Below are positions 1-15,655 of a stretch of 38,147 bases of DNA, piece after piece; within the stretch, counting starts at the first letter, position 1, and every line of letters starts with the position of its first letter. The notes under the pieces were generated by a model, which was not told the origin of the DNA, made no database searches, and worked only from the letters and a program-made list of their open reading frames with translations. This DNA comes from Endomicrobium sp. Lineage in GTDB: Bacteria; Elusimicrobiota; Endomicrobiia; Endomicrobiales; Endomicrobiaceae. The position numbers and the translations under genes were made by a program. The DNA lies in the NCBI GenBank assembly GCA_031289585.1, contig JAITPF010000026.1, positions 1 to 38,147 on the forward strand, read 5' to 3'.

Positions 1-204
1 ATATACTCCTAATGTTATGTCTTTCCTCATTTCTTTGTCAAATCCTATCATCACTCCTACTTCACTGTCTTTATACTCTTTCGGTGAATTTTCATCTTCT
101 CCGTACTTAGTATAATTCATCTTCATCTCTCCCCACACACTATTCTCTTTTTTATCCTTCCTTCCTATCCTACCATACACTTCTTTCCTATCACTTTCTC
201 CTGC
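1..204 (-). pseudogene. Autotransporter beta-barrel remnant, continuing past an in-frame stop and off the window edge
   Basis: Directly after the TGA at 205-207, the same minus-strand frame stays open for 68 codons to the window edge. The translation looks like the start of an outer-membrane autotransporter barrel. It has a Trp-Gly strand (NSVWGEMKMNYTKYG), an acidic loop, then a strand with GVMIGFDKEM and a last strand with DITLGVY. Alternating hydrophobic residues with Gly and aromatics are typical of this barrel family. It has no start codon or ribosome site of its own. It is best read as the C-terminal part of the gene at 205-813, separated by a nonsense codon. Whether the rest of the barrel is intact lies outside the window. 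Recoding or a sequencing error could also explain the break. Confidence 0.65.
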
Positions 205-813
205 TCAGCTTCTTATCACATTCGCTAGAAAATGTCCATCCATTTGGCTAAACCCTTTCTTTGGATCTTCTCCCACTGTAGCCATCTTTGTTATCACTCT
301 ATCTATATATCCTTTACTATCTACTGATACCTTATCAAGCAATCTTGCCATTTCCTTTTGACTTTTTGTCAATCCTCTCATATTAGAAAAACGCGACTCT
401 TTGCCATACACCATTAATTTTCCTTCGCACCAATCTACAGAATACGAGCCTCTATTTATTAAAAGCTTCACTTGTGGAGCTCCGTGTATGCGTAGGTCTT
501 CGGTTGAAATAATATCTATTATTGCATATATTTTCGCTGCTCCGTCATCTCCAGGATTATCAAAATTTCTATTCTTTATTTTAAATGTCTGGGTTTTATA
601 TAAGTGTAGAGGCTCATCTTTACTCGCTACTAGCGACCTTTTATTCATAGTCCCATCAGCATTTAACACAAATGTTACTATTTTGTCTTCAATTGGTTTT
701 CTAGCATCGGCAGCAATACCAGTACTATAGGATACCAAAATCATCACCGCAAATAGAATCACATACAAAAAAGATACTTTAACATTCTTCGACAAATTTT
801 TTATCATATTCAT
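205..813 (-). CDS. Exported N-terminal part of an interrupted autotransporter
   Basis: This 202-aa frame starts at an ATG preceded by an AAAGGAAAA ribosome site. It opens with a signal peptide: basic residues, a hydrophobic stretch from about residue 14 to 32, then GIAADA as a likely cleavage site. The middle, residues 40-140, is a short beta-rich passenger with no domain I recognise. Residues 145-202 (LTKSQKEMARLLDKV to MDGHFLANVIRS) resemble the helical linker seen just before an autotransporter barrel. The frame then meets TGA at 205-207, and barrel-like sequence continues in the same frame, so the product as read would be secreted but have no membrane anchor. The leader shares KNVKVS with the next gene. 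It is probably a decaying surface protein; a genuine short secreted protein is less likely. Confidence 0.7.
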   Translation of the reverse strand: MNMIKNLSKNVKVSFLYVILFAVMILVSYSTGIAADARKPIEDKIVTFVLNADGTMNKRSLVASKDEPLHLYKTQTFKIKNRNFDNPGDDGAAKIYAIIDIISTEDLRIHGAPQVKLLINRGSYSVDWCEGKLMVYGKESRFSNMRGLTKSQKEMARLLDKVSVDSKGYIDRVITKMATVGEDPKKGFSQMDGHFLANVIRS

Positions 814-2648: not shown

Positions 2649-3345
2649 TTGTTGTAAGATGTTAGTTAACATGGATTCCCGCGTGCGCGGGAATGGCACG
2701 ACAAAAGAATAGATTCATGCGTGAGCTTACATGCGAATGTCTTTATCGGAGGCGGGAAGGACACAAACAATGACAACGGAAAACATGGATTCCTGTTTTC
2801 ACAGGAAGGACACAACTAACGCAACGACAGATAATAATGCAACCAAAGAATGTTTTGTCATGCTCGCGAAAGGCGAGCATCCAAGTAAAAAATGACAACG
2901 GAAAATATGGATTCCAACTGGAGTTTACCCTTGAAGGCCTTAATTGGGGATAGGAATGACACCGTATTTTGCCCTCATTGCGCACTGCCAAAGGCAGCGA
3001 GGGTAGGGACAAAGTCCCGACGAAGCAATCTATGTTGTTAGTAAAGGAAAGATTGCCACGCCTACTTCGTAGGCTCGCAATGACGGACACAGGACTAAAA
3101 GAAAAGATTGCCACGTTGCTTCGCAATCTCGCAATGACAAACAAGATTATAAGTACCGTGTCATACCCGTGACAACGGGTATCCAAGTTGTCGTAAGATG
3201 TTAGTTAACATGGATTCCCGCGAACGCGGGAATGACACAGCAAAAGAAATGACACAACAAAATCAATGCGGATTTAGCGGGAGTTTGTTTACCCTCGAAT
3301 GTCTTTATCGGGGGCGGGAAGGACACAACAAAAGGAATAACACGG
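2649..3345. repeat. Composite block of dispersed palindromic repeats
   Basis: Several repeat types are packed here. (1) A direct repeat at 2649-2683 and 3188-3222 (TTGTNGTAAGATGTTAG and onward) leads into the palindromes 2675-2694 and 3214-3233, with ATTCCCGC/GCGGGAAT arms. (2) Two hairpin units lie at 3051-3086 and 3106-3138. Each runs from GATTGCCAC to GCAATGAC, with different inner stems. (3) A longer unit near 2978-3031 has GGGAC/GTCCC arms and GACGAAGCAATCT. (4) A GAATGTCTTTATCGG segment occurs near 2736 and 3298. The block runs almost to the stop codon of the rluD-like gene. Open frames inside it come from the repeats and have no ribosome sites worth keeping. Confidence 0.8.
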
Positions 3346-3352
3346 CAAGAGG

Positions 3353-10500: not shown

Positions 10501-11349
10501 CTAGTGTGAACCAGACTCTAGATTCATCAGACATAGAATCTCATTTGTAATTTTTTCCTGTCTAGACTTATTATAAATATTAGTTAAAGATGCTGAAATC
10601 TCACTTGCATTGTCTTTTGCATTTTTCATAGCAACCATCCTAGCAGCCTGCTCTGAAGCATAAGCATTCATCAATGCGCTGTAAAATTCAACTTCAAAAT
10701 AGTACGGAAGCAAATCTTTAAGCACCTGTTGTGGGTCCGGTTCAAAAATATAATCTATTTCATTTTCTTTAAAACTTTTATCAGATTTTACTGGAAAGAT
10801 TTCCTCAATAATCGACTCCTGTATAAGCATATTTTTAAATCCAGTATATATTACGCTTACTTTTGCCACTTCTCCTGAAATATAAAATTTTTTAGCTATG
10901 TCTATTATAGGATATATGCCGTCATATTTGGGAAAACTTGTTCCCATACCAAAAGAGGCAAGTACGTTGTAATCATACCTTGCAGCCTCGTTTGCAGCTT
11001 TTTTACCTATAGCAACAACATAATCGCCAGATTGCACATAAGCACTTACCTTTTTAAAGAGATTTACAACTAGTCCACCACAAAGACCTTTGTCTGGAGA
11101 AATAATATAAATCAACTTTTTCCCATCTCTTTCCATTGAAAACCTTTCTATACCATTATTTAAATCTTTATCTTGAAGAATTCTTTGAACCATATACTTA
11201 ATTTTTCTTGCGTATGGATTATGTTTTTCGACGGAATCTTGTGCCTTGCGTATTTTAGACGCAGCTATCATCTCCATAGCTTTTGCTATCTGGGCTATGC
11301 TATCTGAAGTTTTTATTCTTTTTTTAAGCTGTTGTAGGTTCTGTGCCAT
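10501..11349 (-). CDS. atpG: F1 ATP synthase gamma subunit
   Basis: Gamma is the rotating shaft linking the c-ring to the catalytic head. The 282-aa product has the conserved N-terminal helix (MAQNLQQLKKRIKTSDSIAQ, then AKAMEMIAASK), the DKGLCGGL motif in the middle and a typical C-terminal helix (YASEQAARMVAMKNAKDNAS). Length is normal. The start codon and first eight codons lie in a 41-bp direct repeat whose other copy is at the end of atpA (13759-13799). This gene was therefore probably separated from atpA by insertion of the restriction-modification gene. The sequence upstream of its ATG now comes from the insert side and is a purine-rich run (AAAGAAAAGAAAAG), a weaker ribosome site than usual. 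Confidence 0.95.
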   Translation of the reverse strand: MAQNLQQLKKRIKTSDSIAQIAKAMEMIAASKIRKAQDSVEKHNPYARKIKYMVQRILQDKDLNNGIERFSMERDGKKLIYIISPDKGLCGGLVVNLFKKVSAYVQSGDYVVAIGKKAANEAARYDYNVLASFGMGTSFPKYDGIYPIIDIAKKFYISGEVAKVSVIYTGFKNMLIQESIIEEIFPVKSDKSFKENEIDYIFEPDPQQVLKDLLPYYFEVEFYSALMNAYASEQAARMVAMKNAKDNASEISASLTNIYNKSRQEKITNEILCLMNLESGSH

Positions 11350-11362: not shown

Positions 11363-13758
11363 TTCTTTTCTTTTAGAATTATCCTTTTTAATTACAAATT
11401 ACCACTATATGGTAATGATTTTATATAATTCCCCATAAATTTAAAATCAGGTTCCCCTTGCAAACTAACAGGTAATTTTATAATTGTTTCTTTTATTCGT
11501 TTTTGTGCAAATTTTCTACCATATCCATATTTATATTGCTCTAAATTAATTATACCAACAAAAAATATCGCTATATACGAGTTCATTGTAAACTTTGGCA
11601 TCAATTTTTCTACGTGGTCGCTTGCTGAAAAATTTCTATTTTGGTAAAAACAAGTTCCAACTGTCGCACTATCTATTGTTAAAACATTGCCTTCTTCAGT
11701 CCAATAATTATAAAATCCGCTTACTCCGTTATTTTGAGCCGATGTAACCACGTAAGGATATTCGCCTCTGCCATATAATTCTACATCTCGTTGAACTATA
11801 CTTTTTGTTCCAGTTACTTCAAATAAATCTGACAACTTAAATCCCTGCCATTTTCTAACATCAAGTTTTATATTTTTGTTCATTCCAAATTTATCAACTA
11901 TATTTTTAAGATAAAGGTTCGATAATAAGAAAATTGAATATTTAAAAATTTCTTTTTCAAAAATTTCTTTTTTCAAAGCGATATAATCCGTCTCCATGTA
12001 AGCCTCTACACACCACTCGTCACTTGCCTTTACTTCTTTCTTCACGCTATGACCAACTATTTCATCCTTATTCCTATAATTTTTTATCCATTGCGCTTTT
12101 ATGCTATCCCATACATTATTATAATCCGACCTACCATTCGCCTTCCTCTTTATAAATCCATCTTCCTTCCAATATCCAAAATATGTCTTATAATTTTGTG
12201 GGTGCTTTTCCCTTGCTATAAATATCATTACACACGTATTTACACCTACTTTTGAATTAAAAAATAATTCATTCGGCATCGAAAATACCGCTTCTAGCGT
12301 GTGATTCTCTAATAATCTTTCTTTTAACGCTAATCTATCTCCGCTTTGCGCCAACGCACAAGACATCGGTACTATCGCTACACAATAACTGCCCTTTTCT
12401 AACATTGATAAATTATTTAATATAAATTCTATCTCTTCTTTATCGTTCTTATCATTCTTATACGGTGGATTTAAAAATCCTACATTAGGCTTAATTTTCT
12501 TAACTTCCTCTATTATAGCCTCATCAAAACACGACCCTTTAAACAAATTGCTTCTCCCGTCACCATGAATAAACATATTAGAACATAATAATGTAAATAT
12601 ATCATCCTGATATTCTATCCCTATTATTTGATTCTTTTTTATCTCATATTCCTTATTATTATCTCCGGCACTATCTTTTATCATCTTTTGCATCCCTGAT
12701 ATTAAAAACCCTCCCGTACCAACGCAATTGTCCAATATTATGCTGTCTTTATTTACATTTGCTATATTACAAAATAATTCTGTTATATGCGGCGGTGTAA
12801 GTACTATTCCTAACCCTTTGTCATTATTTGCATATCTTAAAAATTCTATATAAAATTGCCCTAATGTATCAAAATATTTATAATTCTTTATAAATGAATT
12901 TATTTTATCGTCAATCTCTTTTATTAAGTTCTTTAAAATTGATAGGTCTCTTGACAATATTGTATGCGTCTTTAAAAAACTATAACTTATTACTATCTCC
13001 TCTATGTATGGATTACTTACATCATTTAACTTTATAGATATCGCATTTAAAAAATTATCCGTTAATTTCTTATAATTTACCTCATATTCAAAACTATTTC
13101 TAAATGACTTATCACTTAAAGCTATTAACGCTCCCGCTATTAACAAACTTCTCTGCGATTCTTTCACTTTTAAACTATGCAATTTATCATTTAACTCTTT
13201 TGAGTAATATAAAAGTTTTGAAAAATCTTGTTTAAACTTCCTATCGTCTTTTTTATATCCTTCTAAATAAGCCTCTAAACTTAACAATTTATTATCAAAT
13301 ATAGGTTCTGCTTTACTCGTACCCTTCAATTGTAAATAATGATTAATCTTTAAATTATTTTTATCTATCCCAGAAACCGCTACCGCTAGTACGTCAAATT
13401 CCTTTGACAAATAACTAGCATACAACTTCACACCATCAATAGCATAATCTTTGTAATTATTTCCTATATTTGATATATGCTTCTTTATGTTTGCTTTACA
13501 TTCGACAACTATTAAAAAATTTGTATCGTCTTTATACCTTATAATAAATTCAGGCTTGCCTTGCCCTTCTCCGCTCTTTGACGCATTCTTTAATAATTTT
13601 GTTATTATATTGCTATCTGACAGTTGCTCTTCAAATATTACTCTGTTATCTTTGTAATAAGTATCATTCTCAAAATGTCGCCTTACTATTCCTTCAGCCT
13701 TCCTTTCATTCATGTCATTTTACCTCAGCCTCTTTATAAATCATAAAGTACTCTATAA
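11363..13758 (-). mobile_element. Putative RM-gene insertion unit in the atp operon
   Basis: The DNA between the two copies of the direct repeat is 2396 bp and holds one restriction-modification gene. No transposase, integrase or terminal inverted repeat is visible. Short flanks of 29 bp after and 45 bp before the gene make it compact. The structure fits insertion with long target duplication, a mode proposed for restriction-modification genes from Helicobacter pylori genome comparisons. The same orientation as the operon means it can be transcribed from the atp promoter. Confidence 0.7.
11392..13713 (-). CDS. Single-chain restriction-modification enzyme (nuclease, N6-adenine methylase, specificity domain)
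   Basis: This 773-aa protein looks like a type IIG-like or type I-derived RM fusion. Residues 1-130 form a PD-(D/E)xK-type nuclease domain, with PEFIIRYKDD at 54-63 and VVECKAN at 69-75. A helical region leads to the HsdM-like methylase: VLTPPHITELF at 304-314, the AdoMet motif DNCVGTGGF at 328-336 and catalytic NPPY at 415-418. Residues from about 605 to 765 form one target-recognition domain like those of HsdS (WQGFKLSDLFEVTGT, YGYGRKFAQKRI). All motifs look intact with no frameshift. The ATG at 13713 has GAGG 9 nt upstream. It lies between atpA and atpG inside a 41-bp duplication, clear evidence of insertion. A methylase-only activity is possible if the nuclease is dead. Confidence 0.85.
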   Translation of the reverse strand: MNERKAEGIVRRHFENDTYYKDNRVIFEEQLSDSNIITKLLKNASKSGEGQGKPEFIIRYKDDTNFLIVVECKANIKKHISNIGNNYKDYAIDGVKLYASYLSKEFDVLAVAVSGIDKNNLKINHYLQLKGTSKAEPIFDNKLLSLEAYLEGYKKDDRKFKQDFSKLLYYSKELNDKLHSLKVKESQRSLLIAGALIALSDKSFRNSFEYEVNYKKLTDNFLNAISIKLNDVSNPYIEEIVISYSFLKTHTILSRDLSILKNLIKEIDDKINSFIKNYKYFDTLGQFYIEFLRYANNDKGLGIVLTPPHITELFCNIANVNKDSIILDNCVGTGGFLISGMQKMIKDSAGDNNKEYEIKKNQIIGIEYQDDIFTLLCSNMFIHGDGRSNLFKGSCFDEAIIEEVKKIKPNVGFLNPPYKNDKNDKEEIEFILNNLSMLEKGSYCVAIVPMSCALAQSGDRLALKERLLENHTLEAVFSMPNELFFNSKVGVNTCVMIFIAREKHPQNYKTYFGYWKEDGFIKRKANGRSDYNNVWDSIKAQWIKNYRNKDEIVGHSVKKEVKASDEWCVEAYMETDYIALKKEIFEKEIFKYSIFLLSNLYLKNIVDKFGMNKNIKLDVRKWQGFKLSDLFEVTGTKSIVQRDVELYGRGEYPYVVTSAQNNGVSGFYNYWTEEGNVLTIDSATVGTCFYQNRNFSASDHVEKLMPKFTMNSYIAIFFVGIINLEQYKYGYGRKFAQKRIKETIIKLPVSLQGEPDFKFMGNYIKSLPYSGNL

Positions 13759-13786
13759 TTTTAAGCTGTTGCAAATTCTGTGCCAT
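13715..13786 (-). CDS. 23-codon frame opened by the duplicated atpG start codon
   Basis: The upstream copy of the direct repeat keeps the atpG start (MAQNLQQLK). The frame then runs into insert DNA (IIEYFMIYKEAEVK) and stops at TGA 13717-13715, one base before the ATG of the RM gene. The likely old atpG ribosome site (AAGAAG) is still upstream, inside the end of atpA. Translation here would deliver ribosomes to the RM start, so it may work as a coupling leader. It is a by-product of the insertion rather than a gene with its own function, and expression is unproven. Confidence 0.35.
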   Translation of the reverse strand: MAQNLQQLKIIEYFMIYKEAEVK

Positions 13787-13799
13787 AATTGTTTATCTT
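13759..13799 (-). repeat. Right copy of the 41-bp direct repeat flanking the RM insert
   Basis: This copy contains the last codons of atpA through its TAA, and in another frame the ATG plus eight codons of atpG. It is probably the ancestral overlap of atpA and atpG. The paired copy is at 11322-11362. In this copy the atpA end reads NNYGTEFATA-stop; the other copy would read PTTA in place of the final FATA. Confidence 0.9.
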
Positions 13800-15302
13800 C
13801 TTAAATTCATTTATTGCCTTTTCTAGTTCCATTTTTAAGGAATCATCTATTTTTGCACCTGTTGAAAGCTTTTTAATAGTTTCAGGATATGTCTTTTTTA
13901 TAAATTCTATCATCTGGTGTTCAACTGCAACAACTTTATCAACGTTTATACTATCAAAGAGACCTGACGTTACAGCAAAAAGTGACAATATTTCTGAAAG
14001 TTCGTCATAAGGTCTATATTGCGGCTGCTTTAGAATTTCTGTAATTCTTCTACCTCTTTCAAGTCTTTTCAATGTATCTTCATCTAAATCACTTCCAAAC
14101 TGCGTAAAAGCTTGTAATTCTCTAAACTGCGAAAGTTCTAATCTCACCGGTCCAGCTAACTGTTTCATCGATTTAGTCTGCGCTGCTCCACCTACACGTG
14201 AAACAGAAAGACCGACATTAATTGCAGGACGTATGCCTGAATTAAATAAATCGGCTTCAAGATATATTTGTCCATCAGTAATCGAAACTACATTTGTAGG
14301 AATGTATGCAGATAAGTCGTTCCCTTGAGTTTCAATAATAGGAAATGCTGTAAGAGTTCCTCCACCTTTTTCATCAGACATTCTAGCAGCTCTTTCCAAA
14401 AGCCTCGAATGTAGATAGAAAATATCACCTGGATATGCTTCACGACCTGCAGGCCTTTTAATTAAAAGAGAAATTTGTCTGTATGCCCACGCATGTTTTG
14501 TTAAATCATCGTAAACAACTAAAACATCTTCGCCTTTGTCCATAAAATATTCTCCAATTGCACAAGCCGCAAGAGGCGCAATATACTGCATTGAAGCAGG
14601 ATCTGAAGCCGTAGCTGCAACAACAATAGTATAATCCATAGCACCTTCTTCTTTCAATTTTGCTGTAATCGAAGCTAAATTGGATTTTTTCTGTCCGATA
14701 GAACAATATATACATATAACTCTTTTTAAGCCCATATCAAGTTTTTTCTGGTTTATTATAGCATCAACTGCTATAACTGTTTTTCCCGTACCTCTATCAC
14801 CGATTATAAGTTCTCTTTGTCCCCTTCCTATTGGAGTCATTGCATCTATAGCTTTGATACCTGTTTTTAAAGGTGTATCAACTGAACTTCTTTGAATAAT
14901 GCCAGGAGCTATTTTTTCAACTGGATAATAAACAGAATTCTCATGTTTTAATTCATTACCATCTATAGGTTGCCCCAAAGCATTTACGACTCTGCCTATC
15001 AATTTGTCAGAAACAATAACATTTAAAACTTTCCCTGTAGATTTTACTTTCATTCCGCGCACAATATGTCCTGAATTTTTAAGCAAAACTATTGAAACGT
15101 AATCTTCATCAATATTTAAAACAAAACCTACTGATCCATCATCAAACTCTATTTCTTCATAATAACCTGCATTAGAAAGACCTGAAGCTTTTACAATTTC
15201 ATCACCCATAGTCTCAACTATGCCGAAATTGATAAGTTCAGGATTTACTTGCGTAGAATACAACTCTTTTTCAATTTTTTGTATTATTTCTTCTGGTTTC
15301 AT
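13761..15302 (-). CDS. atpA: F1 ATP synthase alpha subunit
   Basis: Alpha forms the non-catalytic nucleotide sites of the F1 hexamer. The 513-aa product is full length, with GDRGTGKT at 168-175, the conserved block LLERAARMSDEKGGGTLTAF and the arginine-finger motif SVSRVGGAAQ. Its ATG overlaps the atpH TGA in an ATGA arrangement, so translation is coupled. The last codons overlap, in another frame, a copy of the atpG start. This indicates that before the RM insertion atpA ended inside atpG by about 26 bp. No key residue is missing. Confidence 0.96.
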   Translation of the reverse strand: MKPEEIIQKIEKELYSTQVNPELINFGIVETMGDEIVKASGLSNAGYYEEIEFDDGSVGFVLNIDEDYVSIVLLKNSGHIVRGMKVKSTGKVLNVIVSDKLIGRVVNALGQPIDGNELKHENSVYYPVEKIAPGIIQRSSVDTPLKTGIKAIDAMTPIGRGQRELIIGDRGTGKTVIAVDAIINQKKLDMGLKRVICIYCSIGQKKSNLASITAKLKEEGAMDYTIVVAATASDPASMQYIAPLAACAIGEYFMDKGEDVLVVYDDLTKHAWAYRQISLLIKRPAGREAYPGDIFYLHSRLLERAARMSDEKGGGTLTAFPIIETQGNDLSAYIPTNVVSITDGQIYLEADLFNSGIRPAINVGLSVSRVGGAAQTKSMKQLAGPVRLELSQFRELQAFTQFGSDLDEDTLKRLERGRRITEILKQPQYRPYDELSEILSLFAVTSGLFDSINVDKVVAVEHQMIEFIKKTYPETIKKLSTGAKIDDSLKMELEKAINEFKKINNYGTEFATA

Positions 15303-15655
15303 AAACTCTCTCTTATACCGTTTAAAATTCTTTTCATTATTCCTGAAACGCTATAATCCAAAACAAAGTCACTATACTCAAAACGCACTCCGCCAACAAT
15401 ATTCTCATCGTCGCGCTTAAATAAAATTTTTTTGTTTGGAAACATCGCAATAATTTTCTTTTTATTCTCATCGCTTAATTTGCCAGCAAAACTTGCAGTA
15501 ACACTGTTGTCTCTTATTTCTTTCGATAACAAACGCATAAATAGCTTAAGCTCCTGTCTTGAAAGATTAGAAAAAATCCACTTTAAATTTTTTCCAGACA
15601 ATTCGTCATTTTTAACAATAGATTTTGCAAGTTCTTTAATTTGTGATCTTTTCAT
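15299..15655 (-). CDS. atpH: F1 ATP synthase delta subunit, short form
   Basis: Delta joins the F1 head to the peripheral stalk. This product is 118 aa, against a usual 175-180. The C-terminal half is recognisable: VTASFAGKLSDENKKKI, then NIVGGVRFEYSDFVLDYSV, matching the GG and D-S-V features of the family. The N-terminal six-helix domain that normally grips alpha is replaced by about 50 residues (MKRSQIKELAKSIVKNDELS and onward). The start ATG lies inside the end of atpF (20-bp overlap), and there is no room for a longer frame because atpF itself is intact. It ends in TGA overlapping the atpA ATG. It is probably a natural compact delta rather than a broken gene. Confidence 0.82.
   Translation of the reverse strand: MKRSQIKELAKSIVKNDELSGKNLKWIFSNLSRQELKLFMRLLSKEIRDNSVTASFAGKLSDENKKKIIAMFPNKKILFKRDDENIVGGVRFEYSDFVLDYSVSGIMKRILNGIRESL

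Follow-up and report, generated by a model that had tools for sequence, protein, structure and literature searches.

The 38147-base window (the whole stretch of DNA analysed, equal to the entire contig C19 of genome G000) probably carries a recently inactivated type Va autotransporter gene of an Endomicrobiellum-related bacterium, a reading given a probability of roughly 0.78. A nonsense mutation would have arisen just before the β-barrel, and the gene, if translated, would yield a 202-residue exported fragment without a translocator, which, from the way autotransporters work, could presumably not be displayed on the surface. Most likely this is an ordinary case of gene decay, such as has been described before in these symbionts. 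The G000 genome comprises 1,277,048 bases in 49 contigs, is 86% complete and appears to be a metagenome assembly. Its genus (Elusimicrobiota) includes Candidatus Endomicrobiellum devescovinae Gsp477_bin38 and Endomicrobium sp. Gx485_bin159, and its members are described as endosymbionts of termite-gut flagellates with reduced genomes (PMC11257099).

Translation of the frame 813..1 on the minus strand gives 202 residues, a TGA at 207..205 and then 68 stop-free codons to base 1, which include NSVWGEMKMNYTKYG and GVMIGFDKEM (Table 1). Base 1 is the contig end, so the frame leaves the contig there and not merely the window, and the barrel portion that lies within the window is limited to its first ~45 residues. 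The 204-base stretch was open in this frame in 6 of 5000 dinucleotide-preserving shuffles, and the remaining two frames of that strand contain 10 stops each over the same bases; an open frame after the TGA is thus unlikely to have arisen by chance. Furthermore, homology to relatives makes this a real continuation of the frame and renders the question of chance irrelevant. The sequence-only reading, in which 68 barrel-like codons followed the TGA to the edge, is therefore borne out by translation and by homology in a single frame.

Table 1. Features of the interrupted autotransporter frame (window positions).
Feature	Position	Strand	Basis
202-codon ORF: signal-like N-terminal segment, unmatched passenger part and linker; stops short of the barrel	208..813	-	translation
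Signal-peptide-like N-terminus: charged start, hydrophobic core	709..813	-	by-eye reading of translation
Linker, residues 126-202, with homology to the part of relatives that precedes the barrel	208..438	-	alignments to relatives
In-frame TGA	205..207	-	translation; stop there in 0/19 relatives spanning the site
68 same-frame codons that open a PF03797-type autotransporter barrel, truncated at the contig end	1..204	-	alignments, shuffles

Relatives of the broken gene were sought in its own genome and 58 related genomes, and matches were found in 10 of these 59, every one inside the genus; the best match reaches 44% identity, leaving the gene without a close orthologue. The tblastn alignments to intact relatives cross the stop in a single frame. 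Against the best paralogue (L013), identical residues number 31 of 75 before the stop (41%) and 32 of 66 after it (48%), and identity to L004 and L005 likewise stands at 39% before and 46% after. Identity to L014 and L015 falls from 41% and 39%, respectively, to 26% for both, and this drop is a property of those relatives, because the intact L013 compared with them drops in the same way (47% and 42% before, then 26%). The frame after the stop thus shows no consistent extra divergence or loss of constraint, and the break, if real, is therefore recent; this recency would be read from the missing extra divergence in a gene that has no close orthologue. At the stop position a sense codon is found in all 19 relatives that span the site (residues varied, glycine most often), one of which (L008) is itself heavily broken; two further alignments that end short of the position were left out of the 19. 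The proposed comparison of this codon with relatives therefore came out as expected for a nonsense mutation, and the pattern found, an in-frame stop against sense codons in relatives with coding homology going on in frame, is that by which a pseudogene is recognised.

The autotransporter β-domain family PF03797 exceeded its curated cut-off in all four relatives scanned. In L013 this match starts at a conserved VWG motif, the window counterpart of which lies ~23 residues past the stop, so the stop sits in the stretch immediately preceding the barrel. Scanned alone against Pfam, the 68-residue piece matched no family at E<=0.1, and it is called barrel because it aligns with relatives in which PF03797 is recognised. 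The resemblance to type Va autotransporters consists in this alignment to the first ~45 barrel positions; the difference is that the window copy is interrupted twice, first by the stop ahead of the barrel and then, within the barrel, by the end of the contig. The PF03797 matches in the same genome, where the rest of the barrel was sought, lie on contigs C20, C1 and C39, none of them at a contig end, and the remainder of the barrel did not turn up in the assembly. A BamA-type barrel-insertion protein is encoded in the genome (TIGR03303 over cut-off at G000:C37). As a side observation, the barrel of L013 and L062 is not the C-terminus but is followed in the same frame by an extension that looks OmpA-like by eye, and the extension of L013 also has a sub-threshold match to an FlgD Ig-like domain.

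It is quite improbable that the 202-residue product is functional as a secreted or periplasmic protein with the barrel a disposable remnant, or that the stop serves to switch off, reversibly, one member of a variable surface repertoire. The ORF is intact up to the stop, and passengers in this family are very diverse over shared barrels, as such readings would allow; however, residues 1-125 had no match in 41 genus genomes, where the linker was the only part to match, and the nonsense change has none of the repeat tracts that mark phase-variable switches, with no tandem repeat at the stop site. Searching phage sequences with the 202-residue frame gave no match.

The TGA is a genuine stop in this genome, and recoding is very unlikely, as the sequence-only reading had also held. 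Among the 37 ORFs listed for the window, 24 end in TAA, eight in TAG and five in TGA; two of those ending in TGA are the 3D-domain gene (28022-28861) and, within the ATP synthase cluster, an ORF (15299-15655) taken as atpH by position, in keeping with the earlier statement that TGA is a normal stop elsewhere here. Release factor RF2 (TIGR00020) is intact at G000:C6. Of 37 tRNA matches, 36 were read by ARAGORN, either directly or within a neighbouring locus, and one, on contig C7, was not recognised by it; tRNA-Trp has the anticodon CCA, and a UCA anticodon was not seen among the 36 tRNAs read in this 86% complete genome. None of the 11 matches to the tRNA-Sec model reached the gathering score, and by position all are ordinary Ser, Leu, Cys, His, Trp and Thr tRNAs, and five SelB matches were all under the cut-off, an absence that is not final at this completeness. 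That this particular TGA is recoded or read through, as Trp, as Sec or by a programmed event, would account for the continuing frame and for the residue that relatives encode at the site; however, it is extremely unlikely in view of the findings above and of the breaks in relatives, which use TAA, TAG and TGA alike. Recoding to Trp or Sec was accordingly rejected.

A nonsense mutation in a family that decays readily agrees with a survey of PF03797 profile matches in the 41 genus genomes, which returned 73 matches in 18 of them. Internal stops occur in nine of the 73 (6 TGA, 4 TAG and 3 TAA), and in none of the 148 control matches from the same genomes (110 to the atpD family, namely F1 subunits and relatives, and 38 of BamA type). 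Fisher's p is 2e-4 against the atpD family alone and 3e-5 against both control families, values that are indicative, given that survey rows are matches and not genes and that related genomes are non-independent. The figure of nine counts internal stops only, and truncation of the other 64 rows falls outside it. When the nine stop-bearing regions were re-read against relatives, genuine breaks were found in seven. L054 (one TAA and one TGA) and L056 (one TAG) have stops in-frame within long continuous homology, L055 has a stop and a frame change, L057 two stops, and L060 many stops and many frame changes, while L053 and L059 are broken chiefly by frame changes, their stop counts being secondary. 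Re-reading gave no hit for L058 and did not confirm the break in L061. Broken autotransporters are thus frequent in the genus. Together with the missing extra divergence, the contrast of 9/73 with 0/148 upholds the earlier proposal of a recent nonsense mutation in a genome-reducing, host-associated bacterium.

The same controls bear on the possibility that the TGA reflects a mistake in sequencing or assembly, or a variant of a minority strain, close to the end of a metagenome contig, with the gene intact in the population. The site lies 205 bases from the contig end, two other contigs of the genome (C31 and C40) end inside the same barrel family at a repeat junction with exactly 119 terminal bases shared, and the titles of two related MAG records contain 'k119'. 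However, the genus has many broken copies, yet the 148 control matches are without an internal stop, and random stop-making errors must therefore be rare in such assemblies. In addition, not one 21-base word is common to the contig end of the window and the other loci compared, and this end has no second copy in its own genome. An error is accordingly rather unlikely, and the base is presumably real. As an observation in its own right, the 119 shared terminal bases of C31 and C40 (L064 and L065) lie under different upstream parts, which suggests either one barrel common to two passengers or an assembly junction.

Several further features of the window were recorded. Scanning positions 1-2400 for promoters and terminators gave a result close to chance, with 9 promoter-like sites where shuffled sequences had a mean of 6.6. 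Adjoining the broken gene, two minus-strand ORFs (1022-1477 and 1602-2240) encode Ala/Gly-rich, exported-looking proteins without a Pfam match, whose signal segments resemble that of the broken gene and each other (KNVKVS in 1022-1477, VMCVVLSL in both). The region 2650-3350 has few genes and contains palindromic repeats of the form ATGGATTCCCGC...GCGGGAATG and GATTGCCACG...CGCAATGAC. Between atpA (13761-15302) and the ATP synthase gene that follows it (10501-11349) lies a gene for a type I DNA methylase fused to a specificity domain (11392-13713, minus strand; PF02384 + PF01420), of which 6 of 41 genomes have relatives. The distance between atpA and atpD is about 3.9 kb in this genome, vs about 1.1 kb in those genomes of the genus with which it was compared by eye. 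At 30763-31688 (minus strand), an AbiEii-type nucleotidyltransferase lies beside a DUF6922 protein, resembling a type IV toxin-antitoxin pair.

Gene interruption has already been reported from Endomicrobium endosymbionts, and the present case is alike in this respect (PMC8809381, PMC4505116). In Candidatus Endomicrobium trichonymphae Rs-D17, pseudogenes interrupt numerous pathways (PMC4505116) and the pilus genes are decayed, and five Endomicrobium genomes have 10 to 37 annotated pseudogenes apiece (PMC8809381). The difference is that autotransporters are unmentioned in the portions of these two papers drawn on here. A study of genome reduction in Endomicrobiellum states that many members lack several outer-membrane proteins (PMC11257099), and neither 'autotransporter' nor 'pseudogen' occurs in the main text of that paper. 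A literature search found nothing joining Endomicrobium with autotransporters.

On the reading as recent inactivation, the gene would be a member of a diverse, fast-changing family of the genus in which several copies are broken by stops or frameshifts; its function has presumably been lost, drift is the probable cause, and such breakage would be expected from relaxed selection during genome reduction. More tentatively, it is possible though doubtful that the genus maintains a modular surface repertoire of shared autotransporter barrels under unrelated passengers, with turnover through gain, recombination and the loss of members to nonsense mutations or frameshifts. If so, the stop would be a snapshot of turnover and not of passive decay alone, and the Endomicrobiellum-type repertoire would be comparable in kind to surface-protein families of other intracellular bacteria.

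By itself the case adds a further broken gene to a symbiont undergoing genome reduction. Across the survey, however, internal stops are far commoner in the autotransporters of this genus than in two housekeeping control families, and such frequent breakage fits a picture in which surface proteins are lost as symbionts take up an intracellular life. It is also a caution against taking a single in-frame stop in such a genome as proof of recoding.
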